This document shows positions 29,683 through 62,247 of a DNA stretch of 64,000 bases, piece by piece. Each line of letters opens with the position of its first letter. The stretch's first letter is position 1. The notes under the pieces were generated by a model. It was not told where the DNA came from. It saw nothing but the letters and a program-made list of their open reading frames with translations, and searched no databases. This DNA comes from Siphonodentalium dalli (Eukaryota > Mollusca > Scaphopoda > Gadilida > Siphonodentaliidae), in contig CP136061.1 in the NCBI GenBank assembly GCA_032622095.1, positions 195,346,935 through 195,410,934 of the forward strand. The letters are read 5' to 3'. The position numbers and the translations under genes are program-made.

Positions 29683-29735
29683 TACTGTAAAAGACATCAG
29701 GAAGAAAACACTAACGTTTATTTTTAAGAGCATTA

Positions 29736-29957
29736 TACAGTAATGCCTTAAATAATCGACAACTTAACCACAGCAGAATTATGGGTAATTTTTCAGGATT
29801 TAGTTGGAGATATGGCTCAGTGAGATTTAGTTGGAAATATGTCTCAGTGAGAGCTTTCCGATGAATGGCAACAAGCCATATTTCCAACAAAATCCTGAAA
29901 AAATTACCCATAATTCTGCTGTGGTTAAGGAGTCGATTATTTAGGACATTACTGTAT
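29736..29957. mobile_element. Family A MITE with disturbed centre
   Basis: The ends are TACAGTAATGCC and GGACATTACTGTA. The middle has a short duplication around GATTTAGTTGGA. Confidence 0.8.
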
Positions 29958-30081
29958 GCAGACAATAGTCAAAGAAACACTGATGTTAATTTGTAAGATA
30001 ATTATAACAAGACAACACTCCGAGAAACAATAAGGACTCATTCTACATCAATTAAAGATGCATAACCTGAATTAATGCTTG

Positions 30082-32720: not shown

Positions 32721-32923
32721 TCCAAGATGACATTTCAGTAACCAATTTTGACTAAAAGGTCAACTGCAAAAGTAGGGTAATATTTAACTCTGTCTGAAAA
32801 CTTCATACTTTGACACTAAATATTGGCTGGATAACTGAACTACATGTATCAGGGTAATCTCAAGACATTTTTCTGTTTGAAATTTCCAGTTTAAAGATGC
32901 ATAATCCGATTAAGCGCCCCTAT

Positions 32924-34080
32924 CTCATATATATTTTGAAGACCTCTTGTTTGTCTGTCTGTCTGTCATTTATACAAATCTACGATTCTCGACCGATCGG
33001 GACGAAACTTGGTATGTGTGTGTAGTTTGACCAGGCGGTCGACGTTGTCGTATTGGCGAGCCCGTGCGGCGCCCGCTTCGCGCATGCGCAGACGAGATCT
33101 CGGAAACGGGTGGAGCTATCGACTTGAAATTTGCTATGTGAATGTATCTTGCCCCGGATACGAATTTTATCAGGTCGCCGAGCCCGTGCGACGCCAGCTT
33201 CGCGGATGCGCAGACGATATCTCGGAAACGGGTGGAGCTATCGACTTGAAATTTGGTATGTGAATGTATCTTGCCCCGTACACTGCCGTACACAAATTTT
33301 ATCGGGTAGCCGAGCCCATGCGACGCCAGCTTCGCGCATGCGCAGACGAGATCTCGGAAACGGGTGGAGCTATCGACTTGAAATTTGCTATGTGAATGTA
33401 TCTTGCCCCGGATACAAATTTTATCGGGTCGCCGAGCCCGTGCGACGCAGCTTCGCGCATGCGCAGACCAGATCTCGGAAACGGGTGGAGCTATCGACTT
33501 GAAATTTGGTTTTTGAATAGCCCGGACAACGTTGGGCTCATCGGCTAGTCTCATATATATTTTGAAGACCTCTGTTTGTCTGTCTGTCTGTATGTCTGTC
33601 ATTTATACAAATCTACGATTCTCGACCGATCGGGACGAAACTTGGTATGTGTGTGTAGTTTGACTAGGCGGTCGTCGTTGTCGTATTGGCGAGCCCGTGC
33701 GGCGCCCGCTTCACGCATGCGCAGACGAGATCTCGGAAACGGGTGGAGCTATCGACTTGAAATTTGGTATGTGAATGTATCTTGCCCCGGATACGAATGT
33801 TATCGGGTCGCCGAGCCCGTGCGACGCCAGCTTCGAGCATGCGCAGACGAGATCTCGGAAACGGGTGGAGCTATCAACTTGAAATTTGGTATGTGAATGT
33901 ATCTTGCCCCGTACACTGCCGTACACTGCCCCGGATACGAATTTTATCGGGTCGCCGAGCCCATGCGACGCCAGCTTCACGCATGCGCAGACCAGATCTC
34001 GGAAACGGGTAGAGCTATCGACTTGTTTTAAAAAAAATTGTTTTTTGAATAGCCCGGACAACGTCGGGCTCATCGGCTAG
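32924..34080 (+). repeat. GC-rich minisatellite in two blocks
   Basis: Block 1 (32924-33549) and block 2 (33550-34080) both start CTCATATATATTTTGAAGAC plus TGTC repeats and end AGCCCGGACAACGT..GGGCTCATCGGCTAG. Within each, a ~125-bp unit recurs three or four times (GCGCATGCGCAGAC, ATCTCGGAAACGGGTGGAGC, CTTGCCCCG). ORFs on both strands arise from the repeat and are not genes. Confidence 0.9.
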
Positions 34081-34490
34081 TTACTATTTATTTGGATTCG
34101 GGGTAAAAAATATTTGATTCAAGTCAAGAAACCCACCTATCAAAGCTCAGAGTTATTAGATATCGATATTTGACATCTATTAGTTTTCTCCATCGAGAAT
34201 TATTAGTGGCCCAGTAAACAGTCAACGAGGCGACGGTCTCGGACCACATTGCGGATGAAGATGGATTACTCTAAAATCAAGAGGCTTTCTGTTGGTAATA
34301 AGGGCAAATTTCGTCGAACATAATGTTGATAAATAAAACATTTCAGGCAATTTTATACTATAGTTGACAGTGGTTAGCATTATTTTTGGGCAATTAATCA
34401 TTCTGATAACTGAAGCCGCATTTCTAAAAATGTTGTTGGAATCTGGTTATATGGGGACCATCGAATCTGATTGAGTACCTTTAATTATGT
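34081..34490. mobile_element. Family I element, truncated
   Basis: It begins TTACTATTTATTTGGATTCG directly after the minisatellite and matches the left part of 30082-30834 (AAATATTTGATTC, AAAGCTCAGAGTTATTAG). Confidence 0.65.
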
Positions 34491-44311: not shown

Positions 44312-44317
44312 CTACGG
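44312..44317 (+). repeat. Left target-site duplication CTACGG
   Basis: CTACGG directly precedes the TGCTGC start of the giant element and is repeated after its GCAGCA end (62242-62247). The older inverted repeat can be followed across the joined site. Confidence 0.8.
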
Positions 44318-44804
44318 TGCTGCATACAGGCCTCTTGGGGGGGTAAAGGTACATTATAGAAGTACATTGGAAGTATGGGTACATATTCTACTGCCCTATT
44401 GTCTTCCGACATCAAAGGAGATCAAAGGAAAGTACCCCGCCCCCGCACCGTATGACGTAACGACGTTGTATGTAAACAAAGATCAAAGTACCACCGCCCC
44501 CGCACCGTATGACGTGGCGACGCGTGGGTGTTTGAGTATACGCGTGTGGGTATTTGTATACGTCACGTTTGTGGGGGGGGGGGGTCCTTCTGTATATGGA
44601 TGTGTACTTCGTGGGTGTGGCTATTTGAGAATGGTCGTATACGCTTTCGGGCCCTTGAGAAAGGTACAATGGGCAATCGTATACTTCCGTCATCGAAGTA
44701 CGTCGTGCAAACTGATCGTCAGGTGCGAACTATATTTGAGGACCTTCATTAACGGGGGAACCTCGCCCCTCAATTATATTCCTAATAAGTGTATTACCGC
44801 ACAT

Positions 44805-45110
44805 TAAAGGTACACACGGTAATCAAAGTGTTATCAATATTAAAGGGACACAATATATTCTGACACTCACAAAGTCAATTTAAAGACACACTCGGATATC
44901 ATTCTGTGTGAATATTAAAGTGACACAATGTGCACACAGTGCGTGAATGTCAAAGGGGAGCACTCTCAGTATAATGTTAAAGCCACACTCGGTACCCATA
45001 AACTAAATATAAAGGCACACTCCACACTCACTGTGTATGAATGTTAAAGTGACACACGACACACAATGTGGATGAATGTTAAAGTTACACACGGCACTCG
45101 CAGTGAAAAA
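44805..45110 (-). repeat. Degenerate tandem array (AATGTTAAAGTGACAC), left arm
   Basis: Five or six units of about 50-60 bp built on GAATGTTAAAGTGACACAC and CACTCACAGTG. The mirror copy is at 61450-61755. Confidence 0.75.
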
Positions 45111-45115
45111 AAAAT

Positions 45116-45410
45116 GTTAAAACTTAAAAAAATTGAAATTTTTCAAAAATGAAAAAAAAAATGAAAAACTTTAAAAACTTCAAATTTTTCAAAAATAAAA
45201 AAAAAATGAAAAACTTTAAAAACTTCAAATTTTTCAAAAATAAAAAAACAATGAAAAACTTTAAAAACTTCAAATTTTTCAAAAATAAAAAAAAAAAAGG
45301 AAAAACTTTAAAAACTTTTCCTAACTGAAAAAAAACATGAAAAACTTCAAAAAACAATATTTTTCCTAAAATTGACAAATAATTTTAAATGTTCAAAAAT
45401 TTCAAAAAAC
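45116..45410 (-). repeat. A/T-rich tandem array, left arm
   Basis: A 55-60-bp unit AAAAACTTTAAAAACTTCAA plus ATTTTTCAAAAATAAAAA repeats about four times. The Phe/Leu-rich ORF read from it is an artefact. Confidence 0.9.
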
Positions 45411-45643
45411 ATTTTAGTGAATAGAGTGGTGAATGAGTGTATAAGACCATCACTTCATAGATTTTCCTAGCTATCCAACTTCAAGCATTTATGAAGTATG
45501 TAGGGACACCGATCATTATACATTTTCACAAACAGAGGCATACTAATCGGTCCAGACTGGCACACTATTCTCTTGAATTCCACATCTGTTAATAATATTT
45601 ATTATAATCTATCTCTTCTGGTGCTCTATATGCTTTCTTTAAT

Positions 45644-46104
45644 CGTTCTGCCTTACAAATCTTTACATATTACATAACAACTCAACTCAATTATTGAATA
45701 CTTCTCACAACTACCCCCTCTCCCAGCATCTCATCCCCCTTTATCTCTCTCTCTTCTCTCTTCTCTCTCACGTCCTCTCTATGTCTCTCGCTCTCTCTCT
45801 GGTGTATCCATGTAAACAAATTCTCAGAAATCGTTTAGCGCCTTGGCCATATATATTTCAACATATCCAATAATACATATGCAGATCGTTCTGCCTTACA
45901 AATCTTTACATATTACGTAACAACTCAACTCAATTATTGAATACTTCTCACAACTACCCCCTCTCCCAGCATCTCATCCCCTTTATCTCTCTCTCGTCCT
46001 CTCTATGTCTCTCTCTCTGATGTATCCCTGTAAACAAATTCTCAGAAATCGTTTAGTGCCTTGGCCATATATATTTCAACATATCCAATAATACATATGC
46101 AGAT
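45644..46104 (-). repeat. Tandem duplication of ~250 bp, left arm
   Basis: CGTTCTGCCTTACAAATC starts units at 45644 and 45897; both end AATACATATGCAGAT. They differ by a ~40-bp loss in a TCTC tract. Confidence 0.9.
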
Positions 46105-46307
46105 TACCTCTAGGAAACAAGAATTTTCTAGAATGTGGAAAAACAATAACAGAGCGTATCTCCTATAATAGAATATTCTCAAAGTCATCACGTGACCTGA
46201 CAGTTGGGCAGTAAACTCATTAGAATCGACAATTTACGCACTGTCTGTCTATCGAAAGCACTTGTATCACATGATCTGCCAGTGCATTTGGAATGTTCGC
46301 CATGCCA

Positions 46308-46565
46308 TCATAATATAAGCTTCAGTTTGAATCGCCCCAGTCCATGGTCCCATAACATGTTCTCATTTGAAGACATTTGAAGAGCGTCTGGTTTAATTTC
46401 ATGGTAAAGTATTGCACAATCATTCACAGAATAGATTAATGGAATCATTCTGCAATTTTCGAAGCTTAACATTCTCCAGCCATTATTTGCTCTGCTGTTT
46501 GAATCCACATTATTAAAAAGATTAAAATCTCTCGCCTGATGCGCTATAACCTTCATCACAAACAC
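46308..46565 (-). CDS. Unknown 80-85-residue ORF, left arm
   Basis: Identical to 59995-60252 on the other strand; see that entry. Kept as a possible gene because it is one of the longer ORFs of the arm, but no family is recognised. Confidence 0.25.
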   Translation of the reverse strand: MFVMKVIAHQARDFNLFNNVDSNSRANNGWRMLSFENCRMIPLIYSVNDCAILYHEIKPDALQMSSNENMLWDHGLGRFKLKLIL

Positions 46566-46865
46566 ATGTCATTAAGTGTGCTGACAGAGGCAACAACGCT
46601 AAGGTCTCGTCTTTCTTCCCTCGCAATATATTAAACCCTCGAGTTATCTACCTTCTTGAATATTCCCCTTTAGTAAAGTAAATGATCTGTATACAGGTAA
46701 TATTACTTTCATGGCGTATGTAACCAAACGAGGCCCATCTCATACTCTAGCAAACATAAAACACATGTGTTGAGAATATCAAGGAGTAGCGGAAGAAAGA
46801 GAGAGGAGCAGAGAGAGAGCCAGACGTAGAGGTGTGTTGTTTTATGTCTATATATTTCATACACA

Positions 46866-46975
46866 TACAGTAATGCCCTAATTAATCGACCCCTTATCCA
46901 CAACAGAATTATTGGTATTTTCAGGATTTAGTCGGAAATATGGCTTGCTGCTATTAATCGGAAAGCTCACTGGGT
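46866..46975 (+). mobile_element. Family A half-copy inside the left arm
   Basis: TACAGTAATGCCCTAATTAA down to the centre GGAAAGCTCACTGGG; the right half is missing. The same host MITE family fills the IQSEC introns, so the giant element has lived in this genome or a close relative. Confidence 0.85.
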
Positions 46976-47694
46976 TATGTGTGTTTTATAACATTGGAGA
47001 CGTTCGTACCGATGTTTGGTGCTGCTAGTAAATAACCAATACTTACTTCAGGTGCAACACCTGAGTCATTGGAATTCAATGCAATCCCTGGGTGAACCCT
47101 AACGGCTCACTCCCCGCTCATTGGACACATGTAATCTTCAACCACGCAATTTTTCTGGAACATGCTACATGTGGAAACATTCTATTTGACTAGTATTGAA
47201 AAATCCTTCATAATTCCACGGGCATCGTATATGGTCCGTTTAAAATACCTGTATGTGGCCCCTTTAATATATGTATCCCGACTAATGGTACACTGTTATT
47301 TCAATGGCAAACTTGATTAAATCATCTCTAACAATCGTTAAGCTTTTTTCTCTAACTACCACTTTACAATATGGTGTATATAATCGAACTATCAGGAATC
47401 AATCAACGCCTTACCCATAGATATTTGAATATACAACTGAACGCATTTTGGGTCACATACATTAAATGTACACATCACTTATGCATTTAAATCTAATTCG
47501 GCCTATCCATCAATACAAACGTTCTTTATTTCCAAAATTGTCTCAATACCCCCTCGTTTTAATATAGATTTTAGCTATATGCTTTAATTCATATAAAATT
47601 GACGCAAATCTATGTTAAACGACAGCAGCATTATAACAGAGTAGCCACTTACCTTCAAGTAAAAAAAAAAGTACCATTGTGTTCTCATTTTCTA

Positions 47695-48120
47695 TCTTAT
47701 CATAATGAAATTTGTCACGTGCGTGCCAGACGTCACTTAGAGGTAAACACCATATTTTGGTTCGAATAATTTCAATAACATGGCCGCCAGCCTATTTTGA
47801 ATTTTAGATATTTAAAAAAATAAAATGTCATGTCAGGCTTATTTTCTCGTCGAACCACGGGGGTTGCTCTCCGTCACTTAGCGGACATCTTCACATATTG
47901 GGGACGAATCGGTTGAGAAATACGGCCTCCAGTGGTCATCTTTTATTTAAGTCATAAATGCACTTCGAATTTTAAAGTGTCATAGTGGGCTCATTTTTCC
48001 ACCAATCGTTATGAAATTTGGCGAGTACGTGCCCGACGTCACTCAGATGTTATCACGAGATTTTAGTTCGAAAAACATGGCCGCTATTTTGTTTTAAGTC
48101 ATAAAACTACAGAAGGAGGT
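47695..48120 (-). repeat. Family K units, left arm
   Basis: Three units, each with ATGAAATTTG-type, GACGTCACT and AACATGGCCGCC-type segments, related to 40195-40560 and 41590-41990. Confidence 0.65.
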
Positions 48121-48345
48121 GTAGAGTTTGGTCGTGGTATTTCTCAAGTCATTCTCATTCTGTAGTGTTATTACAAAATCACAAGATAATCGAGGAAGGT
48201 CATGCCAGAGAATAATTTCGACATGGTTTACTACACGTGGGTCGGCTTTTCCATAGCAGTAAAACTGAACGCATATTTTAAAAATTCACACATTTTATTA
48301 TTTATTAAACACAATCCATTTATTCCATTACATAATAATTACAGT

Positions 48346-48867
48346 TTAAAACGAATCAGGTGTATATATTTTGCATAATTCCGGTGAACAGAAACTACAC
48401 ATTAAAAAGCCAAGCTGATTTTTTTTATGATCCTCTTGCATGTAGCAGGGTACTAAAGTTTGTAGTTCCGGTACAGCCACAGTGACGTCATTAATGGTGG
48501 ACATCAACTGTTCAAATTCTGAGTGGCTAAGAGTTACACCTGTCTTCGTAGGGCAAAGTATCTCACTGTCTTTCGGGTAAAAGAATTTTCTGATGTGTAC
48601 AACACTGTGTTCATGATCATAAGTCACGTGTTCATTATGTCCGATATGTATCCTTTCCAAAGAAGATCTGCTTTGTAAATGTTCATACACTTTCTGCGCG
48701 TTATCAGCTAATTCCAGCCACTGTTGTAATCTCAGGCAGGCGCCGAATTTAGTAGGGAACTTCCCCTCGTTCCATATTCTGATGTCTATATTTTTTATTC
48801 TTTTATATTCACCGACGGTAAGGTATCTATCCCGTCCTAAGTGTTTGGTGAAAATTTTAGAATTCAT
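48346..48867 (-). CDS. Tandem PC4-like protein, left-arm copy
   Basis: 173 codons, the same protein as 57693-58214; domain details are given there. On this strand the CRE (48938-48945) and TATA box (48925-48930) lie just before the ATG, and A/T-rich poly(A) signals follow the stop near 48319-48324. Confidence 0.7.
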   Translation of the reverse strand: MNSKIFTKHLGRDRYLTVGEYKRIKNIDIRIWNEGKFPTKFGACLRLQQWLELADNAQKVYEHLQSRSSLERIHIGHNEHVTYDHEHSVVHIRKFFYPKDSEILCPTKTGVTLSHSEFEQLMSTINDVTVAVPELQTLVPCYMQEDHKKNQLGFLMCSFCSPELCKIYTPDSF

Positions 48868-49193
48868 GGTATCGTTTCGATGAACGCTGAACTGAAAATG
48901 TCGGAGACACGTGGATGTATTACGTTTATACCCTATATGACGTCATTGGGCGGTCCCATCACAACCGTTTCAAAGTATATAATCCAATCAGATTGCCCCC
49001 TGGATTCGCATTAGCCAAATATGGAAGGGCCAATCATGTTTCGATCAGAGGGAACCCTCAGACAGTGGCTCGGAAGTACATTATCTAAATACAGAATAAA
49101 GGGGTTTCGTGGTAAACTGTCTCGGCCTATAGGAAGGGCCGGAAATGACACGCAACTGTGATTCAGGGTATTCACAACACAGGTATGAATCAT

Positions 49194-49502
49194 TTAACCA
49201 AAAGTTTTGGCATAGGCACGCACGCTTCTGCACAAGGGACAAGTCTCAGAACCGAGCGCACACATGCCACACATTGATACGTGTCCACGTGGTAAAAGCA
49301 CACAGTTGTTATTATTCTCTGGACAAATGATACATTTGCATTCTTCAGAAACGTCTACTGTCGTATCAGGCCAGTCATCTTCATAGGAACCAGACAGTCT
49401 CTCATCGTTTATTTCAGTCATTTCTTCGAAATTAACGGTTAGGTCATCTATTGAAAATGTATTCATTTCTTGAACAGAGGCACTATCCACGGGACGTTGC
49501 AA
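49194..49502 (-). CDS. IAP-type RING finger fragment, left-arm copy
   Basis: Mirror of 57058-57366; the first true ATG is complementary to 49466. See the right-arm entry for motifs. Confidence 0.6.
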   Translation of the reverse strand: MQRPVDSASVQEMNTFSIDDLTVNFEEMTEINDERLSGSYEDDWPDTTVDVSEECKCIICPENNNNCVLLPRGHVSMCGMCALGSETCPLCRSVRAYAKTFG

Positions 49503-49720
49503 TGAAAAAATTCCTGGTACATCGGGGATTTTCCATTAAATATCTCGGTCTGTTCCACTGTTTATATCTATCTTCAGGCAGGAAACGTTGCAACTAATTG
49601 AGATAGCTACAATTTGGAAAGAAACGGTAATGTTCATATATAGCTACAATTTGGAAAGAAACGGTAATGTTCAGTTCGAGGATCATCTCTTTTTCCCATT
49701 GCCACAACCTACATCCGCAA

Positions 49721-49984
49721 CTATAACATTTGGTTTACAGCGGTCTTTGTGAAAAAGAAACCAGCTCCAGCTATTTTAGCAGCCTCCACGGGCGAGGTCC
49801 AGTTTTCGAAAGAAGCTAATCTCGAGTGAAAATTTCGATACTCTGGGTATGACGGTTTCCAAGCCACAGTAAGACCATACAAATTTAAAAGTTCTGGTAT
49901 CGTGCTTACACTATTATCGCTCGAATCAGCTGCGTGCGGCGGGATATCCATCACCTGCTGTTTCTCCCCCACCCTGACAAGCAT
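49721..49984 (-). pseudogene. Broken BIR domain, left-arm copy
   Basis: Mirror of 56576-56839 with the same premature stop, so the break predates or was copied between the arms. Confidence 0.6.
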
Positions 49985-51014
49985 TATGAACCTGTAAACG
50001 TTAGTTCAAGCCTTATAACAATGGTAATGTATAGAAACGCGTTCATTGGCCGCTGTATTAACATTATTATTATTGTTTATATATATATACTTGTTTTCTT
50101 TTTACAGATGGAAAATTTCCAGGCTGAACAGTTTCATCGCAATTGATTCGAAAGTAGTGACCTTATGATGGGAATTAATGCGGGAAGACAACGAATGACC
50201 CATTTAAATAGGTCCCTATACAACAGACTGGTTGAGTTGGAACCATAATTTCTAATTTACAAAACCCTCTGTTTATTCGAGGAAATCCGCTAACTCAAAG
50301 GTCCTTGGACATGAGTTTCACTTCATGATGCAACATCACGCCAATATGTGGCTCTAAATTTGCACGTACCTAGTGAGCATTTGATCTCTAATAGCGATCA
50401 GTGAAGTATTTAGTTCTTATCATAATATTTATAACAGCCAATAAAAACCCGTTGCTCGATTTAACTATATAATACACGGACAAACGGAATGAAAACATCT
50501 GTGCACCAACTTGTGCAAAACCAAAGGACCCAGCTGATGTAGACTAGTATATAAATACTTACTTCATGTATTCTTTTCATCAATGATATGCATTTAACAC
50601 CTATAAATATAGTCTGTTATACAGATGAAACATTGTTCACAGTCTCATGCCACGAAAGGCCTACTATGTGAACACATGTGTATATTAATTCCATATTTTC
50701 TTGTCAAAACGCTCTATTATATAACGATGTATTCGTTAAGTTAATCGTTCCTTTATCTTTATTGTTGTTAATTTATAGCATTGTTAGTAGAAATTTAATC
50801 TAAACTCGATGGTTTATTGAACATAATGCGTCAATACTGCTTCATTGGTGGTAACTGAACTTATCACATCATGTATCGCAACTAAAACAAGCGAGACAAC
50901 TCATAAATTTGTAATAGTTCTCATGTCTATGGCGGTTCACACAGTGTACATTTTCATTGTTGTTACCATTTAATGCACACATTACTGATGTATGCATAAG
51001 AACGCGGGTCTACA
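49985..51014 (-). other. Left-arm DNA without recognised gene
   Basis: A/T-rich; ORF 49934-50146 (+) is antisense to the BIR start and unconvincing. Confidence 0.5.
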
Positions 51015-51345
51015 TTGTTGTCAAGTACATATATATTTATATATGTCCATATTTCTTAAAGCAAGTACAGTATCTGTATCTGCTATGACATATAACAAGT
51101 GCCATTTTCACATGTAAATCACGTAGTAAAGCTCTTTAATGTATAGTTAAACAGTTGAGATTTCAGACGCAGGTATATGTCCTTGTGGAATATATACGTG
51201 GTATACGTCCGTATATACACGAAGGTAATGTGTTCTAAGTATGTGATTTATGTATATGTCCATGTTCCTTGAAGCAAATCCGTTACATATAAATACGTTA
51301 TGACGTATATTAAGTGTCATTTTCACTGTTAAATCACGTACAATA
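51015..51345 (-). repeat. Diverged tandem duplication (period ~217 bp), left arm
   Basis: Mirror of 55215-55545. The 73-codon ORF 51147-51368 reads through it. Confidence 0.65.
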
Positions 51346-51399
51346 TTAGCAAACGTGGTATTTCTCACAAAACTATATCGACACGGCCATTTATCAAAC

Positions 51400-52640
51400 G
51401 AAATGACATGTCTGGGATCAAACGTGCTAATCAGGCCTGTGTTTTCGCCAACAAGGGAGTTTGATTCTGGTTGTATATGATGGTTCAGTCATTATATGAT
51501 ACCTAATCGGTTGCACATGGTGCTGTCTAGGGTATATACTGTGCATGTATATTAAATGCTCCATTGATGTTATGAGTATGGCCTCGGTGTCTGATCCATT
51601 GTCCACATGTTTCTTAATTATGCACTCTCTTTACTATGACTAAATTGTATTGTGTACATATCATAACTGGCATTATATGTATTTTGTATCATTTAATGTA
51701 ATAATTATTTTAAAAATACCGTGTATATCACAATACTTTACTATAGCTGATGTGTGTCTAGAAGCTTATTCATGCTATCATCACATACACTTGAATTAGA
51801 TACTAACTATCGAGTTATGATTTTTCCCTGTATTTTCATGCAATATTCGTGAATGGCAACAATCAGCAGTTCTTTTCTGATGAATGTCAAACGAGATTTA
51901 TCACCCCAATGCCCCCTCTAGCTGACATTTCGATAACCTTTATTGAATCTTAAACACTGTAATTTCTCTAATTTCTCCACGTTACTTCTCCTATACACGT
52001 AGTTCGATCAGCTGTCAATGTTATGTCGGGTGTTGCTGTTGTGTTCTTAATGGACCATCTGCTAACTAACGATGCATGTCAAGTATGCATACTATTTGTT
52101 TTAATATGCCTGGTATACATGTATTCTCAGACACTCACTCTCAGGTGTAGCTCTTCGGTAAAACACATAGATATGATATAGCTGTGCGGTAAGGTTCGTC
52201 CATGACATTACTTCATTCCGACATTCTGATACATAGACCAATCACATAAAAGTAATGAATGTACTCCCAATACGTTAGGCATATATTTTAACCTGAGTGA
52301 TGTCACCACAAAACGCAAGGTTCAAAAACTTAAAAAATAGTTAAAAGCACACATTTTTATTTCGAATATCATTATTTATGGTCAATTTCGTGTTATGAAA
52401 TGGGCCATTTTACAAACGCGTAATAGGTGATTAAAAAAACGGCTATTTGATAAAAAATTTAAACGCTATTATCACTATATTTGGAATATAAAAAACGTTG
52501 TATTTGACGAAGTATGACAATGCAAAATGACTACTTTTTTAAACGCGAATTTGAAAACACTAATATCGAAACGAATTTTAAACTAAGTTCGTGTTATGAA
52601 ATGACTCATTTTATAATCGCGGTCTAGTCAAGCGGGAAAC
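51400..52640. other. Left-arm DNA without recognised gene
   Basis: No ORF above chance and no known local repeat. Mirror at about 53920-55160. Confidence 0.5.
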
Positions 52641-53147
52641 TAGTATGTATGTGTAAGTCGACTTAGCGCGGACCTCATTAAAACCCCCTTAAACACCCCC
52701 CTCCCCCCGTCCGGATGAAACCCCGACCAAAAAAAGGGGGAGGGGGAGGGGGGCGCGCCGTTTTTTATGCCAAAAAATATGCCAGATATTTTTCATGCAA
52801 CCAGTTTCATACCAAATCGTTCACCATATTGTTGTAATTGTTGTTGCTGTGGTTGCTTTTTGATGCTGTTTTTGATGTTAGTTTGGTTGTTGCCGTTGTT
52901 TTTCTTATTTTAGTTGCTGTAATGGCAGCGGCACAATTTGGAACATACATTTACACACAGCAACTTGAGGAGGTGGACTACCTTATATCAAAGGTTAAGA
53001 TGAGTTATACACTAATGCTTTGGAACATTGTACTAAAACATTAGGTTTGAGAAGGTGTGTTTATATTCCTGGAGAGAGTCAGAGAAGTATTACTGGACTT
53101 GTCCAAACATGTCACATATAAGTGTTTGCCATTGGTTAATATTAAGA

Positions 53148-53155
53148 TATATAAA
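53148..53155 (+). promoter_or_regulatory. TATA box before the central PC4-like remnant
   Basis: TATATAAA about 130 bp before the ATG at 53281, the same order as in the arm gene. Confidence 0.45.
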
Positions 53156-53280
53156 TGAGGTGCATTTGACATCACAGTCACTGGGGTGAAGGAAAGGGGC
53201 TATCGACCATCCCGGGGGTAGCCACCCCCACACCCCAAATCACATACTCCCCATCACTTGCTGAGAAACCATTGAGAAGC

Positions 53281-53636
53281 ATGGAGCTATATCACCAGAA
53301 GATTGTGAAACCAATGTATGGCCAACAGAGATACATAACAGTTACTGAAGAAAAGGGTGAAAAATAAACATATGGCAATTAGAAGATGGTATTTTGCCAA
53401 TTAAATATGGAATTTCTATGGACAAGGATTTATGGTACAATATGTCTTCATATGGTGATGACATCAACGGAGCGATATTAGAGAAACGTTCGGTAAAATA
53501 GCATATTGGGAGTGACTGGTTTCTGTGCTACTGTAATAAATATTGGACAATACGAATAGGAAAATTCTATAAACATAAGGAGTATCAAGAATCGTACTTC
53601 AAGTGTACAAAATGTTGCGGTTCTATGGTTGAATAA
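53281..53636 (+). pseudogene. PC4-like paralogue, frameshifted
   Basis: ATG at 53281 opens a frame reading MELYHQKIVKPMYGQQRYIT that closes at TAA 53365-53367. From about 53367 the next frame carries an IWQLEDGILPIKYGI segment, to a TAG at 53499-53501. Beyond it is an RIGKFYKHKEY segment up to TAA 53634-53636, overlapping AATAAA. The order matches the 173-aa arm protein: an RY(I/L)TV lead, then (D/E)G-x-(F/L)P-x-K-(F/Y)G, then a second IR-x-KF segment. One frameshift and one in-frame stop break it. Two Cys pairs (CYC, CTKCC) near the end are not in the arm copy at that place. Confidence 0.6.
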
Positions 53637-55214
53637 ATATATAGCTATAATTCAATATCTTAGTCAGTTTTCCATCCATAGTTATGGTTTCAATATCATC
53701 CTGGGTATAGGCAAATATACCATATTTACCATTTTTCATACATATTGTATACAATATTATATTTAGTCACCCTCCTACAGCATATTTTTTGGCATAAAAA
53801 ACGGCGCGCCCCCTCCCCTCCCCCTTTTTTTGGTCGGGGTTTCATCCGGACGGGGGGAGGGGGGTGTTTAAGGGGGTTTTAATGAGGTCCGCGCTAAGTC
53901 GACTTACACATACATACTAGTTTCCCGCTTGACTAGACCGCGATTATAAAATGAGTCATTTCATAACACGAACTTAGTTTAAAATTCGTTTCGATATTAG
54001 TGTTTTCAAATTCGCGTTTAAAAAAGTAGTCATTTTGCATTGTCATACTTCGTCAAATACAACGTTTTTTATATTCCAAATATAGTGATAATAGCGTTTA
54101 AATTTTTTATCAAATAGCCGTTTTTTGAATCACCTATTACGCGTTTGTAAAATGGCCCATTTCATAACACGAAATTGACCATAAATAATGATATTCGAAA
54201 TAAAAATGTGTGCTTTTAACTATTTTTTAAGTTTTTGAACCTTGCGTTTTGTGGTGACATCACTCAGGTTAAAATATATGCCTAACGTATTGGGAGTACA
54301 TTCATTACTTTTATGTGATTGGTCTATGTATCAGAATGTCGGAATGAAGTAATGTCATGGACGAACCTTACCGCACAGCTATATCATATCTATGTGTTTT
54401 ACCGAAGAGCTACACCTGAGAGTGAGTGTCTGAGAATACATGTATACCAGGCATATTAAAACAAATAGTATGCATACTTGACATGCATCGTTAGTTAGCA
54501 GATGGTCCATTAAGAACACAACAGCAACACCCGACATAACATTGACAGCTGATCGAACTACGTGTATAGGAGAAGTAACGTGGAGAAATTAGAGAAATTA
54601 CAGTGTTTAAGATTCAATAAAGGTTATCGAAATGTCAGCTAGAGGGGGCATTGGGGTGATAAATCTCGTTTGACATTCATCAGAAAAGAACTGCTGATTG
54701 TTGCCATTCACGAATATTGCATGAAAATACAGGGAAAAATCATAACTCGATAGTTAGTATCTAATTCAAGTGTATGTGATGATAGCATGAATAAGCTTCT
54801 AGACACACATCAGCTATAGTAAAGTATTGTGATATACACGGTATTTTTAAAATAATTATTACATTAAATGATACAAAATACATATAATGCCAGTTATGAT
54901 ATGTACACAATACAATTTAGTCATAGTAAAGAGAGTGCATAATTAAGAAACATGTGGACAATGGATCAGACACCGAGGCCATACTCCTAACATCAATGGA
55001 GCATTTAATATACATGCACAGTATATACCCTAGACAGCACCATGTGCAACCGATTAGGTATCATATAATGACTGAACCATCATATACAACCAGAATCAAA
55101 CTCCCTTGTTGGCGAAAACACAGGCCTGATTAGCACGTTTGATCCCAGACATGTCATTTCGTTTGATAAATGGCCGTGTCGATATAGTTTTGTGAGAAAT
55201 ACCACGTTTGCTAA

Positions 55215-55545
55215 TATTGTACGTGATTTAACAGTGAAAATGACACTTAATATACGTCATAACGTATTTATATGTAACGGATTTGCTTCAAGGAACATGG
55301 ACATATACATAAATCACATACTTAGAACACATTACCTTCGTGTATATACGGACGTATACCACGTATATATTCCACAAGGACATATACCTGCGTCTGAAAT
55401 CTCAACTGTTTAACTATACATTAAAGAGCTTTACTACGTGATTTACATGTGAAAATGGCACTTGTTATATGTCATAGCAGATACAGATACTGTACTTGCT
55501 TTAAGAAATATGGACATATATAAATATATATGTACTTGACAACAA
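55215..55545 (+). repeat. Diverged tandem duplication (period ~217 bp), right arm
   Basis: TACGTGATTTAACAGTGAAA at 55215 and TACGTGATTTACATGTGAAA at 55432 start units that also share TATGTCATA/TACGTCATAA and GGACATATA-AAAT. Confidence 0.65.
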
Positions 55546-56575
55546 TGTAGACCCGCGTTCTTATGCATACATCAGTAATGTGTGCATTAAATGGTAACAA
55601 CAATGAAAATGTACACTGTGTGAACCGCCATAGACATGAGAACTATTACAAATTTATGAGTTGTCTCGCTTGTTTTAGTTGCGATACATGATGTGATAAG
55701 TTCAGTTACCACCAATGAAGCAGTATTGACGCATTATGTTCAATAAACCATCGAGTTTAGATTAAATTTCTACTAACAATGCTATAAATTAACAACAATA
55801 AAGATAAAGGAACGATTAACTTAACGAATACATCGTTATATAATAGAGCGTTTTGACAAGAAAATATGGAATTAATATACACATGTGTTCACATAGTAGG
55901 CCTTTCGTGGCATGAGACTGTGAACAATGTTTCATCTGTATAACAGACTATATTTATAGGTGTTAAATGCATATCATTGATGAAAAGAATACATGAAGTA
56001 AGTATTTATATACTAGTCTACATCAGCTGGGTCCTTTGGTTTTGCACAAGTTGGTGCACAGATGTTTTCATTCCGTTTGTCCGTGTATTATATAGTTAAA
56101 TCGAGCAACGGGTTTTTATTGGCTGTTATAAATATTATGATAAGAACTAAATACTTCACTGATCGCTATTAGAGATCAAATGCTCACTAGGTACGTGCAA
56201 ATTTAGAGCCACATATTGGCGTGATGTTGCATCATGAAGTGAAACTCATGTCCAAGGACCTTTGAGTTAGCGGATTTCCTCGAATAAACAGAGGGTTTTG
56301 TAAATTAGAAATTATGGTTCCAACTCAACCAGTCTGTTGTATAGGGACCTATTTAAATGGGTCATTCGTTGTCTTCCCGCATTAATTCCCATCATAAGGT
56401 CACTACTTTCGAATCAATTGCGATGAAACTGTTCAGCCTGGAAATTTTCCATCTGTAAAAAGAAAACAAGTATATATATATAAACAATAATAATAATGTT
56501 AATACAGCGGCCAATGAACGCGTTTCTATACATTACCATTGTTATAAGGCTTGAACTAACGTTTACAGGTTCATA
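55546..56575 (+). other. Right-arm DNA without recognised gene
   Basis: Mirror of 49985-51014. TTTACAG at about 56563-56569 could be a splice acceptor into the BIR ORF. Confidence 0.45.
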
Positions 56576-56839
56576 ATGCTTGTCAGGGTGGGGGAGAAAC
56601 AACAGGTGATGGATATCCCGCCGCACGCAGCTGATTCGAGCGATAATAGTGTAAGCACGATACCAGAACTTTTAAATTTGTATGGTCTTACTGTGGCTTG
56701 GAAACCGTCATACCCAGAGTATCGAAATTTTCACTCGAGATTAGCTTCTTTCGAAAACTGGACCTCGCCCGTGGAGGCTGCTAAAATAGCTGGAGCTGGT
56801 TTCTTTTTCACAAAGACCGCTGTAAACCAAATGTTATAG
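56576..56839 (+). pseudogene. Broken BIR (baculoviral IAP repeat) domain
   Basis: An 87-codon ORF whose end, from RNFHSRLASFENW to AAKIAGAGFFFTK (about residues 50-80), is the first half of a BIR domain: Arg55, SF at 58-59, Trp62, then AGAGFFF. The frame stops at residue 87, before the zinc-binding Cys/His part. The Cys/His-coding bases are present just downstream (about 56835-56925), but in other frames. A 33-bp piece of that part is duplicated (56888-56920 and 56925-56957). A RING ORF follows on the same strand at 57058. BIR plus RING is the make-up of IAP proteins, inhibitors of apoptosis, abundant in molluscs and also carried by several large DNA viruses. Unseen splicing could be an alternative to mutation. 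Confidence 0.6.
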
Positions 56840-56887
56840 TTGCGGATGTAGGTTGTGGCAATGGGAAAAAGAGATGATCCTCGAACT

Positions 56888-56957
56888 GAACATTACCGTT
56901 TCTTTCCAAATTGTAGCTATATATGAACATTACCGTTTCTTTCCAAATTGTAGCTAT
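56888..56957 (+). repeat. 33-bp tandem duplication inside the broken BIR region
   Basis: GAACATTACCGTTTCTTTCC plus AAATTGTAGCTAT occurs at 56888-56920 and 56925-56957, with ATAT between. The mirror is at 49603-49672. Confidence 0.95.
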
Positions 56958-57057
56958 CTCAATTAGTTGCAACGTTTCCTGCCTGAAGATAGATATAAAC
57001 AGTGGAACAGACCGAGATATTTAATGGAAAATCCCCGATGTACCAGGAATTTTTTCA

Positions 57058-57366
57058 TTGCAACGTCCCGTGGATAGTGCCTCTGTTCAAGAAATGAATA
57101 CATTTTCAATAGATGACCTAACCGTTAATTTCGAAGAAATGACTGAAATAAACGATGAGAGACTGTCTGGTTCCTATGAAGATGACTGGCCTGATACGAC
57201 AGTAGACGTTTCTGAAGAATGCAAATGTATCATTTGTCCAGAGAATAATAACAACTGTGTGCTTTTACCACGTGGACACGTATCAATGTGTGGCATGTGT
57301 GCGCTCGGTTCTGAGACTTGTCCCTTGTGCAGAAGCGTGCGTGCCTATGCCAAAACTTTTGGTTAA
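57058..57366 (+). CDS. IAP-type RING finger fragment
   Basis: The open frame has its first ATG at 57094; the bases before it (TTG at 57058) could be joined through an AG at 57045-57046. The C-terminal half is a RING of IAP spacing: C57-x2-C60, x11, R72-x-H74, x3, C78-x2-C81, x6, C88-x2-C91. IAP RINGs have Cys where R72 stands (PCGH), so the third zinc ligand is lost, which should weaken E3 ligase function. The first half is acidic. It lies 218 bp after the broken BIR ORF on the same strand and probably came from the same BIR-RING gene. A viral or element-specific variant RING is the other reading. Confidence 0.6.
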   Translation: MQRPVDSASVQEMNTFSIDDLTVNFEEMTEINDERLSGSYEDDWPDTTVDVSEECKCIICPENNNNCVLLPRGHVSMCGMCALGSETCPLCRSVRAYAKTFG

Positions 57367-57614
57367 ATGATTCATACCTGCGTTGTGAATACCCTGAATC
57401 ACAGTTGCGTGTCATTTCCGGCCCTTCCTATAGGCCGAGACAGTTTACCACGAAACCCCTTTATTCTGTATTTAGATAATGTACTTCCGAGCCACTGTCT
57501 GAGGGTTCCCTCTGATCGAAACATGATTGGCCCTTCCATATTTGGCTAATGCGAATCCAGGGGGCAATCTGATTGGATTATATACTTTGAAACGGTTGTG
57601 ATGGGACCGCCCAA

Positions 57615-57622
57615 TGACGTCA
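57615..57622 (+). promoter_or_regulatory. CRE site TGACGTCA with CCAAT box
   Basis: A perfect palindromic CREB/ATF site directly after CCCAAT (57610-57614), 8 bp before the TATA box of the PC4-like gene. The mirror is at 48938-48945. Confidence 0.6.
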
Positions 57623-57629
57623 TATAGGG

Positions 57630-57635
57630 TATAAA
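57630..57635 (+). promoter_or_regulatory. TATA box of the PC4-like gene
   Basis: TATAAA, 63 bp before the ATG, with an initiator-like TTTTCAGTT about 30 bp downstream. The mirror is at 48925-48930. Confidence 0.65.
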
Positions 57636-57692
57636 CGTAATACATCCACGTGTCTCCGACATTTTCAGTTCAGCGTTCATCGAAACGATACC

Positions 57693-58214
57693 ATGAATTC
57701 TAAAATTTTCACCAAACACTTAGGACGGGATAGATACCTTACCGTCGGTGAATATAAAAGAATAAAAAATATAGACATCAGAATATGGAACGAGGGGAAG
57801 TTCCCTACTAAATTCGGCGCCTGCCTGAGATTACAACAGTGGCTGGAATTAGCTGATAACGCGCAGAAAGTGTATGAACATTTACAAAGCAGATCTTCTT
57901 TGGAAAGGATACATATCGGACATAATGAACACGTGACTTATGATCATGAACACAGTGTTGTACACATCAGAAAATTCTTTTACCCGAAAGACAGTGAGAT
58001 ACTTTGCCCTACGAAGACAGGTGTAACTCTTAGCCACTCAGAATTTGAACAGTTGATGTCCACCATTAATGACGTCACTGTGGCTGTACCGGAACTACAA
58101 ACTTTAGTACCCTGCTACATGCAAGAGGATCATAAAAAAAATCAGCTTGGCTTTTTAATGTGTAGTTTCTGTTCACCGGAATTATGCAAAATATATACAC
58201 CTGATTCGTTTTAA
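57693..58214 (+). CDS. Tandem PC4-like protein, right-arm copy
   Basis: A 173-codon intronless gene with ATG at 57693, TATA box 63 bp upstream and AATAAA 22 bp after the stop. The protein appears to hold two PC4/p15-like segments. One has IDIRIW at 27-32, FPTKFG at 37-42 and W50. The other has VVHIRKF at 89-95, PTKTGVTL at 106-113 and FEQL at 118-121. In PC4 proteins the pattern V-x-IR-x-(F/Y)...P-x-KKG-(I/V)-x-L forms the single-stranded DNA-binding sheet. Cys157, Cys160 and Cys165 cluster near the end. Both arm copies are intact and identical in the frame; the centre of the element holds a broken relative. The likely role is ssDNA binding in replication or transcription of the element. The PC4 assignment rests on motif reading only. 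Confidence 0.65.
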   Translation: MNSKIFTKHLGRDRYLTVGEYKRIKNIDIRIWNEGKFPTKFGACLRLQQWLELADNAQKVYEHLQSRSSLERIHIGHNEHVTYDHEHSVVHIRKFFYPKDSEILCPTKTGVTLSHSEFEQLMSTINDVTVAVPELQTLVPCYMQEDHKKNQLGFLMCSFCSPELCKIYTPDSF

Positions 58215-58235
58215 ACTGTAATTATTATGTAATGG

Positions 58236-58241
58236 AATAAA
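58236..58241 (+). terminator. Poly(A) signal of the PC4-like gene
   Basis: AATAAA 22 bp after the stop, followed by AATAAATAATAAAA at about 58254. The mirror on the left arm is at 48319-48324. Confidence 0.6.
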
Positions 58242-58439
58242 TGGATTGTGTTTAATAAATAATAAAATGTGTGAATTTTTAAAATATGCGTTCAGTTTTA
58301 CTGCTATGGAAAAGCCGACCCACGTGTAGTAAACCATGTCGAAATTATTCTCTGGCATGACCTTCCTCGATTATCTTGTGATTTTGTAATAACACTACAG
58401 AATGAGAATGACTTGAGAAATACCACGACCAAACTCTAC

Positions 58440-58865
58440 ACCTCCTTCTGTAGTTTTATGACTTAAAACAAAATAGCGGCCATGTTTTTCGAACTAAAAT
58501 CTCGTGATAACATCTGAGTGACGTCGGGCACGTACTCGCCAAATTTCATAACGATTGGTGGAAAAATGAGCCCACTATGACACTTTAAAATTCGAAGTGC
58601 ATTTATGACTTAAATAAAAGATGACCACTGGAGGCCGTATTTCTCAACCGATTCGTCCCCAATATGTGAAGATGTCCGCTAAGTGACGGAGAGCAACCCC
58701 CGTGGTTCGACGAGAAAATAAGCCTGACATGACATTTTATTTTTTTAAATATCTAAAATTCAAAATAGGCTGGCGGCCATGTTATTGAAATTATTCGAAC
58801 CAAAATATGGTGTTTACCTCTAAGTGACGTCTGGCACGCACGTGACAAATTTCATTATGATAAGA
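58440..58865 (+). repeat. Family K units, right arm
   Basis: Mirror of 47695-48120. Confidence 0.65.
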
Positions 58866-58869
58866 TAGA

Positions 58870-59580
58870 AAATGAGAACACAATGGTACTTTTTTTTTTA
58901 CTTGAAGGTAAGTGGCTACTCTGTTATAATGCTGCTGTCGTTTAACATAGATTTGCGTCAATTTTATATGAATTAAAGCATATAGCTAAAATCTATATTA
59001 AAACGAGGGGGTATTGAGACAATTTTGGAAATAAAGAACGTTTGTATTGATGGATAGGCCGAATTAGATTTAAATGCATAAGTGATGTGTACATTTAATG
59101 TATGTGACCCAAAATGCGTTCAGTTGTATATTCAAATATCTATGGGTAAGGCGTTGATTGATTCCTGATAGTTCGATTATATACACCATATTGTAAAGTG
59201 GTAGTTAGAGAAAAAAGCTTAACGATTGTTAGAGATGATTTAATCAAGTTTGCCATTGAAATAACAGTGTACCATTAGTCGGGATACATATATTAAAGGG
59301 GCCACATACAGGTATTTTAAACGGACCATATACGATGCCCGTGGAATTATGAAGGATTTTTCAATACTAGTCAAATAGAATGTTTCCACATGTAGCATGT
59401 TCCAGAAAAATTGCGTGGTTGAAGATTACATGTGTCCAATGAGCGGGGAGTGAGCCGTTAGGGTTCACCCAGGGATTGCATTGAATTCCAATGACTCAGG
59501 TGTTGCACCTGAAGTAAGTATTGGTTATTTACTAGCAGCACCAAACATCGGTACGAACGTCTCCAATGTTATAAAACACA
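58870..59580 (+). other. Right-arm DNA without recognised gene
   Basis: Mirror of about 46980-47690; no feature seen. Confidence 0.5.
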
Positions 59581-59584
59581 CATA

Positions 59585-59694
59585 ACCCAGTGAGCTTTCC
59601 GATTAATAGCAGCAAGCCATATTTCCGACTAAATCCTGAAAATACCAATAATTCTGTTGTGGATAAGGGGTCGATTAATTAGGGCATTACTGTA
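59585..59694 (-). mobile_element. Family A half-copy inside the right arm
   Basis: Mirror of 46866-46975, same truncation point; the terminus GGCATTACTGTA lies at 59683-59694. Confidence 0.85.
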
Positions 59695-59994
59695 TGTGTA
59701 TGAAATATATAGACATAAAACAACACACCTCTACGTCTGGCTCTCTCTCTGCTCCTCTCTCTTTCTTCCGCTACTCCTTGATATTCTCAACACATGTGTT
59801 TTATGTTTGCTAGAGTATGAGATGGGCCTCGTTTGGTTACATACGCCATGAAAGTAATATTACCTGTATACAGATCATTTACTTTACTAAAGGGGAATAT
59901 TCAAGAAGGTAGATAACTCGAGGGTTTAATATATTGCGAGGGAAGAAAGACGAGACCTTAGCGTTGTTGCCTCTGTCAGCACACTTAATGACAT

Positions 59995-60252
59995 GTGTTT
60001 GTGATGAAGGTTATAGCGCATCAGGCGAGAGATTTTAATCTTTTTAATAATGTGGATTCAAACAGCAGAGCAAATAATGGCTGGAGAATGTTAAGCTTCG
60101 AAAATTGCAGAATGATTCCATTAATCTATTCTGTGAATGATTGTGCAATACTTTACCATGAAATTAAACCAGACGCTCTTCAAATGTCTTCAAATGAGAA
60201 CATGTTATGGGACCATGGACTGGGGCGATTCAAACTGAAGCTTATATTATGA
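59995..60252 (+). CDS. Unknown 80-85-residue ORF, right arm
   Basis: The first ATG is at 60004 (the frame is open from a GTG at 59995). The peptide begins MKVIAHQARDFNLFNNV and ends GRFKLKLIL. No signal peptide, membrane segment or family motif is recognised. It is preserved in both arms, which near-identity alone would explain. Confidence 0.25.
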   Translation: MFVMKVIAHQARDFNLFNNVDSNSRANNGWRMLSFENCRMIPLIYSVNDCAILYHEIKPDALQMSSNENMLWDHGLGRFKLKLIL

Positions 60253-60455
60253 TGGCATGGCGAACATTCCAAATGCACTGGCAGATCATGTGATACAAGT
60301 GCTTTCGATAGACAGACAGTGCGTAAATTGTCGATTCTAATGAGTTTACTGCCCAACTGTCAGGTCACGTGATGACTTTGAGAATATTCTATTATAGGAG
60401 ATACGCTCTGTTATTGTTTTTCCACATTCTAGAAAATTCTTGTTTCCTAGAGGTA

Positions 60456-60916
60456 ATCTGCATATGTATTATTGGATATGTTGAAATATATATGGCCAAG
60501 GCACTAAACGATTTCTGAGAATTTGTTTACAGGGATACATCAGAGAGAGAGACATAGAGAGGACGAGAGAGAGATAAAGGGGATGAGATGCTGGGAGAGG
60601 GGGTAGTTGTGAGAAGTATTCAATAATTGAGTTGAGTTGTTACGTAATATGTAAAGATTTGTAAGGCAGAACGATCTGCATATGTATTATTGGATATGTT
60701 GAAATATATATGGCCAAGGCGCTAAACGATTTCTGAGAATTTGTTTACATGGATACACCAGAGAGAGAGCGAGAGACATAGAGAGGACGTGAGAGAGAAG
60801 AGAGAAGAGAGAGAGATAAAGGGGGATGAGATGCTGGGAGAGGGGGTAGTTGTGAGAAGTATTCAATAATTGAGTTGAGTTGTTATGTAATATGTAAAGA
60901 TTTGTAAGGCAGAACG
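60456..60916 (+). repeat. Tandem duplication of ~250 bp, right arm
   Basis: Mirror of 45644-46104; it includes two GAGAGA-rich tracts of different length. Confidence 0.9.
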
Positions 60917-61149
60917 ATTAAAGAAAGCATATAGAGCACCAGAAGAGATAGATTATAATAAATATTATTAACAGATGTGGAATTCAAGAGAATAGTGTGC
61001 CAGTCTGGACCGATTAGTATGCCTCTGTTTGTGAAAATGTATAATGATCGGTGTCCCTACATACTTCATAAATGCTTGAAGTTGGATAGCTAGGAAAATC
61101 TATGAAGTGATGGTCTTATACACTCATTCACCACTCTATTCACTAAAAT

Positions 61150-61755
61150 GTTTTTTGAAATTTTTGAACATTTAAAATTATTTGTCAATTTTAGGAAAAA
61201 TATTGTTTTTTGAAGTTTTTCATGTTTTTTTTCAGTTAGGAAAAGTTTTTAAAGTTTTTCCTTTTTTTTTTTTATTTTTGAAAAATTTGAAGTTTTTAAA
61301 GTTTTTCATTGTTTTTTTATTTTTGAAAAATTTGAAGTTTTTAAAGTTTTTCATTTTTTTTTTATTTTTGAAAAATTTGAAGTTTTTAAAGTTTTTCATT
61401 TTTTTTTTCATTTTTGAAAAATTTCAATTTTTTTAAGTTTTAACATTTTTTTTTCACTGCGAGTGCCGTGTGTAACTTTAACATTCATCCACATTGTGTG
61501 TCGTGTGTCACTTTAACATTCATACACAGTGAGTGTGGAGTGTGCCTTTATATTTAGTTTATGGGTACCGAGTGTGGCTTTAACATTATACTGAGAGTGC
61601 TCCCCTTTGACATTCACGCACTGTGTGCACATTGTGTCACTTTAATATTCACACAGAATGATATCCGAGTGTGTCTTTAAATTGACTTTGTGAGTGTCAG
61701 AATATATTGTGTCCCTTTAATATTGATAACACTTTGATTACCGTGTGTACCTTTA
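61150..61755 (+). repeat. A/T-rich array and AATGTTAAAG array, right arm
   Basis: 61150-61444 mirrors 45116-45410; 61450-61755 mirrors 44805-45110. Confidence 0.85.
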
Positions 61756-62241
61756 ATGTGCGGTAATACACTTATTAGGAATATAATTGAGGGGCGAGGT
61801 TCCCCCGTTAATGAAGGTCCTCAAATATAGTTCGCACCTGACGATCAGTTTGCACGACGTACTTCGATGACGGAAGTATACGATTGCCCATTGTACCTTT
61901 CTCAAGGGCCCGAAAGCGTATACGACCATTCTCAAATAGCCACACCCACGAAGTACACATCCATATACAGAAGGACCCCCCCCCCCACAAACGTGACGTA
62001 TACAAATACCCACACGCGTATACTCAAACACCCACGCGTCGCCACGTCATACGGTGCGGGGGCGGTGGTACTTTGATCTTTGTTTACATACAACGTCGTT
62101 ACGTCATACGGTGCGGGGGCGGGGTACTTTCCTTTGATCTCCTTTGATGTCGGAAGACAATAGGGCAGTAGAATATGTACCCATACTTCCAATGTACTTC
62201 TATAATGTACCTTTACCCCCCCAAGAGGCCTGTATGCAGCA

Positions 62242-62247
62242 CTACGG
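62242..62247 (+). repeat. Right target-site duplication CTACGG
   Basis: CTACGG follows GCAGCA; it is identical to 44312-44317. The downstream bases GGGTTAGCCAGAGTAGAG continue the inverted match of the older element. Confidence 0.8.

Follow-up and report, generated by a model that had tools for sequence, protein, structure and literature searches.

A giant palindromic element of Siphonodentalium dalli is probably a snap-back satellite of a capsid-encoding Polinton

In a 64,000-nucleotide stretch of the genome of the scaphopod mollusc Siphonodentalium dalli (C1:195346935-195410934, hereafter the window) lies a 17.9-kb palindrome (44318..62241 of the window) which, with a probability that we put at roughly 80%, is a non-autonomous, palindromic snap-back (copy-back) satellite of a Polinton/Maverick element, using the enzymes of a Polinton family of the same genome. 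Three observations support this reading: the palindrome has Polinton ends of ~430 bp, its recognised cargo is limited to PC4 and IAP, two genes of a Polinton left half, and it contains no recognisable polymerase, integrase, ATPase or capsid gene. Palindromic copies like the window element are called type A and the other family with the same ends type B. The genome searched comprises 2.23 Gb in nine contigs, and all genome copy counts are lower bounds.

Results

The element consists of two 8.46-kb inverted arms, left (44318..52782, + strand) and right (53780..62241, - strand), around a unique centre of 997 bp (52783..53779), which is a possible fold-back loop. When the window was compared with itself by BLASTN, 44317-52782 matched the reverse complement of 62242-53780 at 99.92% over 8466 columns, with 4 mismatches and 3 gap openings, a pairing far beyond chance; one inverted repeat makes up 94% of the element. 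The tips read TGCTGC...GCAGCA and are flanked on both sides by CTACGG (44312..44317 and 62242..62247), a 6-bp target duplication. The arms, the centre and the duplication had all been foreseen in an earlier reading of the window (the original prediction), and they stand. The terminal inverted repeat proper is much shorter than the arms. On the left it occupies ~426 bp (44318..44743, +), starts with (TGC)2 and is 96% identical to the left end of type B; its right counterpart (61816..62241, -), placed by mirror, shows 0 substitutions against it. The idea that terminal repeats make up nearly the whole element therefore has to be replaced: the arms consist of a repeat of ~426-431 bp plus the duplicated left half of a Polinton-type genome. 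No Rfam family matched the window at gathering scores.

The TG..CA termini had also been taken for a retroviral end pattern. A doubled trinucleotide of Maverick-like form, (TGC)2, describes them better, since these ends are Polinton ends. A retrovirus or long terminal repeat retrotransposon was rejected as well, the terminal repeats being inverted, not direct, and Pfam scans of 13 open frames from the left arm and centre yielding no reverse transcriptase.

Copies of the element are dispersed through the genome. A search with the outer 383 bp gave, among the best 40 of 178 candidate places, 17 inverted pairs and 6 unpaired matches, the pairs (types A and B together) spanning 17.7-18.9 kb. Type A copies measure 17.65-18.21 kb (n=14), not far below the 18.4-18.9 kb of type B copies (n=3). 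A search with the PC4 protein, in which the best 150 of 751 genome candidates were scored, returned 94 matches at 81% identity or more; these comprise at least 40 pairs in head-to-head orientation (38 with a spacing of 7.9-9.4 kb), 10 singles and 4 extras in one cluster. Copies whose PC4 genes lie ~9.3 kb apart, the window copy among them, are here labelled A2, and the commoner form with a spacing of ~8.8 kb is labelled A1. A perfect 6-bp target duplication was present in 13 of the 14 type A copies with both flanks readable and in all three type B copies examined. At C7:202.5M, where both ends carry (TGC)3, the duplication TAAAGT is perfect only if the extra TGC is counted as part of the element. 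Flanks vary between copies and between the two sides of an insertion; such copy-specific, side-specific flanks would not result from a fold-back read or an assembly artefact. The palindrome is a real, multi-copy mobile element, as the original prediction of a large integrating element had it, and the copies with the same termini that it anticipated do occur, with their 6-bp duplications.

One cluster, at C3:53710008-53758299, has six A-type PC4 genes in the order -,-,+,+,+,+ with a spacing of 9.3-9.6 kb, in direct repeats whose unit is about one arm plus the centre. At one unit border (L070, C3:53743030-53743330) the edge of the centre adjoins DNA unmatched in the window, not an element tip. 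Such an arrangement suggests either that the cluster was duplicated in tandem at a later time or that its assembly is faulty.

The helper candidate emerged from the left ends. Eighteen left-end loci were read, of which 14 resemble the window, while four share just the first ~422-431 bp with it, two of these having one additional short, weak block that matches the window. The four form one family, type B, found in either orientation. Its gene content was read from the two halves of one copy, kept apart. On the - strand, Pfam scans identified a PC4 of 197 amino acids (aa) and an IAP with BIR and RING domains. Further genes encode a polymerase, represented by a 634-aa N-terminal frame followed by three DNA_pol_B_2 pieces (two above cut-off); a P-loop ATPase of 216 aa, with a Walker motif read by eye and a weak Pfam match; a 411-aa capsid-like protein, double-jelly-roll by structure match; a small basic protein; an integrase with an rve match at 7e-13 and a chromodomain that misses the cut-off; and, beside the integrase, a TBP-like protein (L055:8221-8736, - strand; PF00352, 7.6e-17). 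The presence of a TBP homologue together with PC4 suggests a viral transcription module. A protease was not found, no thorough search for one having been made.

The structural model of the capsid-like protein has a pLDDT (predicted local distance difference test) of 90. Its best matches among solved structures are the double-jelly-roll capsids of PBCV-1, Sputnik, an iridovirus and mavirus, at 7-12% identity, and its BFVD matches include capsids of adintovirus, MELD virus and virophages. Sixty relatives of the protein were found, among them bivalve 'F54H12.2-like' proteins; capsid relatives, those of bivalves included, are ~39% identical. Because of the capsid fold, the relatives and the structure matches, we call type B a capsid-encoding Polinton, and its predicted proteins identify it as a Polinton/Maverick with a family-B polymerase and an rve integrase. 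The original prediction had pointed to Polintons and to relatives with an integrase, a DNA polymerase B or a capsid gene; type B has all three, with the same terminal sequences as the palindrome. The notion of a free-standing, undescribed class falls with this result. By E-value, the top BFVD match of the type B capsid is R9XLG5, an uncharacterised Cotesia bracovirus protein (26% identity, TM-score only 0.41), which may be what is left of a Polinton in a segment of a wasp virus.

The window element carries each of its genes twice. A PC4-like gene of 173 aa (PF02229), 52% identical to the PC4 of type B, lies in the left arm (48346..48867, -) and is mirrored in the right (57693..58214, +). Next to it is an IAP-like gene (49194..49984, -; mirror copy at 56576..57366, +), whose BIR lies within 49594-49984 and whose RING lies within 49194-49535. 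In the window this gene is broken in the same way in both arms, with BIR and RING in different frames; RING scores above the Pfam cut-off and BIR just below. Both genes had been predicted, and Pfam and the type B protein matches bear them out. A weak PC4-like remnant in the centre (53364..53570, +) aligns at 23% identity across 70 aa, with a tblastn E of 0.004 from a very small search, and gave no Pfam match. The BIR part of IAP also contains a perfect 37-bp tandem duplication (49603-49673, mirrored at 56887-56957), which, being in both arms, predates the last arm copying.

The frames are mostly intact elsewhere. BIR and RING share one open frame in 13 of 15 type A copies read (in two of them, L040 and L041, it has 210 codons against 240-243 elsewhere), and 13 of 15 have an uninterrupted PC4, the exceptions being L039, where the frame is shifted near its end, and L052, with a stop at codon 62. 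Two short frames for which no relatives are known are recurrent as well: 14 of the 15 copies have one of 69-73 aa, and 11 have one of 91-93 aa. Between the PC4 genes of the window and of A1, differences affect ~9 of the 120 synonymous sites and 7 of the 474 nonsynonymous ones (Fisher p 0.001-0.002, in a test whose rows share one history and whose frame takes in 25 codons before the first ATG), which suggests past constraint on PC4. No relative of the PC4 proteins was confirmed in a scan against IMG/VR.

When the type B proteins were compared with the window element and two other type A left halves, only PC4 (52% aa identity) and IAP (28%) matched, in the same order and on the same strand as in the left half of type B. 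The six polymerase pieces had no match in these three sequences, nor had the integrase, capsid, ATPase, TBP and small proteins. Type A has the 6-bp duplication, the same-genome Polinton ends and the short tandem terminal motif of a non-autonomous Polinton derivative, and lacks a match to the polymerase, integrase and capsid/ATPase of an autonomous one. The absence of a mobilising enzyme noted in the original prediction persists in that none was recognisable in the Pfam scans or in these comparisons, and the dependence on a partner that it proposed is probable, the ends being common to type B, which has both polymerase and integrase.

The terminal repeats of the two families were compared using one repeat per element from 21 elements (17 A and 4 B, two of the A being assigned by a single end and a nearby PC4). 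Mean divergence between the families (3.7%) equals that among A repeats (3.7%) and is close to that among B repeats (3.6%). No difference was fixed, both families were polymorphic at 20 of 28 informative columns, and differentiation was nil (fixation index, Fst, -0.02; permutation P 0.54). All four combinations were present in 229 of 378 column pairs, so that the alignment is a mosaic. As judged from these sequences, A and B ends form one recombining pool. Left tips were read in 19 different elements, 15 of type A and 4 of type B, and carry (TGC)2 in 17 of them and (TGC)3 in two.

Further inwards, the relationship is with one end of type B. Three A1 copies match the B left end over ~819 bp at 95-98%, as against the ~431-bp repeat alone for the B right end. 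All four A sequences compared also contain, further in, an older, diverged copy (68-82%) of the B left subterminal block, and beyond the ends they align with B DNA in left-end blocks only. A1 arms, which hold the left-end-specific block and not the right end, thus have the form of a head-to-head duplicated genome end. On the simplest reading, A would have arisen from an older Polinton, of which it kept the left half, and would later have gained the ends of its present-day helper, A1 including the left-specific block and the window type the repeat only.

The two arms of an element resemble each other more than they resemble those of other elements. The comparison over the outer 1880 bp was made for the six type A elements of which both ends had been retrieved. 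Arm against arm, they showed 0, 0, 0, 0, 1 and 7 substitutions, the last two being C4:223M and C6:192M, whose arms otherwise agree save for some gaps; between elements, the five A1 differ by 3-21 substitutions, and A1 differ from the window copy by 326-337. In five of the six type A elements the left and right terminal repeats are free of substitutions relative to each other, and in the sixth they differ by 0.46%; two type B elements show more, 1.6 and 2.6%. The centre was measured in 12 other copies and spans 982-1015 bp in 11 of them; four of 16 windows were left out of the centre comparison, three (L022, L027, L034) being type B and one (L030) having missed the centre. In the exception (L033, C9:175555900-175558400) the arm continues into what was the centre, without a mismatch over 839 bp, and leaves a centre of 749 bp. 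Arm-to-arm substitution matches exceed those between elements, which suggests that one arm has been repeatedly re-made from the other. We infer that the second arm is re-copied from the first by snap-back, with gene conversion on the chromosome as the main rival.

Discussion

Our results point to a satellite that would be propagated in three steps. The protein-primed polymerase of the Polinton would start at the doubled TGC terminus and copy the satellite. The displaced single strand would then fold back and be copied to its end, the second arm being re-made from the first. Finally, the Polinton integrase would insert the product with a 6-bp duplication. Snap-back copying during protein-primed replication would yield concerted arms, matching terminal repeats and a shifted boundary such as that of L033. 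Shared ends and the missing enzymes argue strongly that type A is mobilised in trans by type B. It may also be packaged in the Polinton capsid.

Several results weigh against this interpretation. Snap-back copying is deduced from sequence, and gene conversion on the chromosome could also keep the arms alike. With gaps counted, 38 of the columns private to one A1 element were common to both arms and 46 were confined to a single arm; gap columns numbered 0-42 within elements and 12-92 between A1, so that indels are not cleanly concerted. The contrast is weaker near the centre, where over ~700 bp in 12 copies 0-4 substitutions were found within and 0-33 (median 5) between elements. The window copy has the ~426-bp repeat in common with B, not the left-specific block. 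One of the 14 type A copies, at C8:189.6M, lacks a target duplication. Since A PC4 is 52% and A IAP 28% identical to its B counterpart, B as sampled is likely the helper and not the direct parent. An asymmetric parent with A-type genes was not found, the ten single A-type PC4 matches not having been looked at. Evidence for selection is also mixed: 14 PC4 frames (the window and the shifted tail of L039 included, L052 omitted) have 25 nonsynonymous and 9 synonymous variant codons, with a mean pairwise ratio of nonsynonymous to synonymous polymorphism (pN/pS) of 0.50, and 13 IAP frames (the broken window copy and L051 omitted) have 10 and 6, with a ratio of 0.40. The significant synonymous excess in PC4 rests on the contrast of the window with A1, and the pooled signal is weak.

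The flanks of the C8 copy (C8:189606961-189624778) are CTCTTT on the left and AATAAC on the right, possibly rearranged after insertion.

A bolder version of the satellite reading, tentative and somewhat less likely than its negation, makes type A a satellite virus of the Polinton. It would be packaged in the Polinton capsid, kept near full length as a palindrome and re-folded each cycle, with PC4 and the anti-death gene IAP under selection, and its candidate packaging signal would be the left subterminal block; helper and satellite would form a pair in the animal germline. The length of type A may be held by a packaging constraint, or the shared length could instead stem from one founding event.

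The strongest competitor, unlikely in our view though a serious contender, is an ordinary fold-back transposon: a Polinton deletion derivative whose arms were inverted once, which spread in trans and whose arms were kept alike by gene conversion. Elements with long arms have precedents, such as Tetris of Drosophila virilis (in the accessible part of PMC4079207). The near-constant centre of 982-1015 bp is as expected of a single founding event, and indels are less concerted than substitutions. However, copy-specific substitutions are common to both arms, and the extension of the L033 arm into the centre without a mismatch is easily explained by re-copying.

Much less probable is the capture of host genes between Polinton ends, by which type A would not derive from a Polinton genome. 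IAP and PC4 exist also as host genes, but type B Polintons carry both in the same order and on the same strand, A PC4 has the C-terminal extension of B PC4, and the same arm holds the older copy of B left subterminal DNA. A new autonomous class with a mobilising enzyme of its own, so far unrecognised, is more improbable still. PC4-like proteins bind single-stranded DNA, and most of the arm lacks a recognised gene and holds the recurrent short frames described above; PC4 and IAP are nevertheless the sole recognised genes, and the ends belong to a Polinton with its own integrase and polymerase. An assembly or library artefact (a fold-back read or collapsed haplotypes) is scarcely credible and was dropped once the target duplications were found, for although perfect palindromes are a known type of artefact and doubt persists at a single place, the direct-copy run at C3:53.71-53.76M, the genome has 40 pairs at dispersed places, the flanks are particular to each copy and the 6-bp duplication is perfect in 13 of 14 copies.

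Replication in adenoviruses is protein-primed, and the satellite that we propose would share this kind of replication. Adenovirus 12 SYREC has palindromic left-end genomes; in the literature searched, no description of snap-back adenovirus genomes was found among the matches listed. Virophages and satellite viruses resemble type A as parasites of the machinery of another DNA virus, whereas type A has no capsid or replication gene of its own and has the terminal repeats of its helper. FB and Galileo are fold-back transposons, and like type A they have very long inverted arms and a short centre, and they are mobilised in trans, as type A would be. The same likeness holds for Tetris (PMC4079207, in its accessible part). 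Type A differs from such transposons in its helper, a virus-like self-replicating Polinton, in its gene-carrying arms of 8.46 kb and in its 6-bp duplications. Snap-back genomes form a major class of defective particles of adeno-associated virus (AAV), according to the accessible part of PMC8235507. As in AAV and SYREC, one end is duplicated head to head and a complete helper would be needed; unlike them, type A is integrated in an animal-type genome in dozens of copies, with its frames mostly kept.

With Polintons/Mavericks (polintoviruses, adintovirus-like elements), as described in the accessible part of PMC8097293, type A shares 6-bp duplications, terminal repeats of ~400 bp, a doubled terminal motif and a size of ~17 kb, and its ends are the very terminal sequences of type B in the same genome. 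It differs in having no recognisable polymerase, integrase, ATPase or capsid gene, in consisting to 94% of one inverted repeat and in its motif, (TGC)2 and not the (AGT)2, (AG)3 or (AC)3A of that source. The same part of that paper gives Maverick ends as (AGT)2//(ACT)2, short repeated motifs being thought to serve jumping-back in protein-primed replication; it puts intact Mavericks at ~17 kb within 10%, taken by its authors as a constrained genome size, and states that Maverick particles were unobserved as of 2021. No description of a palindromic, defective or non-autonomous Polinton was found among the matches listed in the literature searched, most subscription journals lying outside the search, and the accessible parts of PMC11071296, PMC8905726 and PMC6431247 describe no palindromic Polinton. 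Fold-back satellites are known for some viruses, and for Polintons it looks as though none has been described in the literature searched.

If the satellite reading is correct, a palindrome that reaches near-full length only through fold-back and swaps its ends with a partner encoding a capsid would provide natural evidence for two features of Polintons: replication in the form of linear, protein-primed genomes, and recombination of ends between genomes that replicate together. It would perhaps also be evidence that packaging constrains Polinton genome length. For genome annotators, type A explains a class of giant inverted repeats.

Other repeats and PC4 genes

A third group of PC4 genes, 46-50% identical to that of the window and mostly with 173-aa frames, was represented by at least dozens of scored copies (for example C3:117331532-117332029 and C2:57608266-57608763), with perhaps many more among the unscored candidates. 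Outside the element, self-comparison of the window by BLASTN revealed a dispersed repeat of ~225 bp in both orientations (3882-4111, 7796-8023, 19182-19408, 28882-29106 and 29735-29969), its copies being ~80-90% identical in the listed pairs; a self-inverse repeat occupies 10590-10845, and 32920-34093 contains repeated units.

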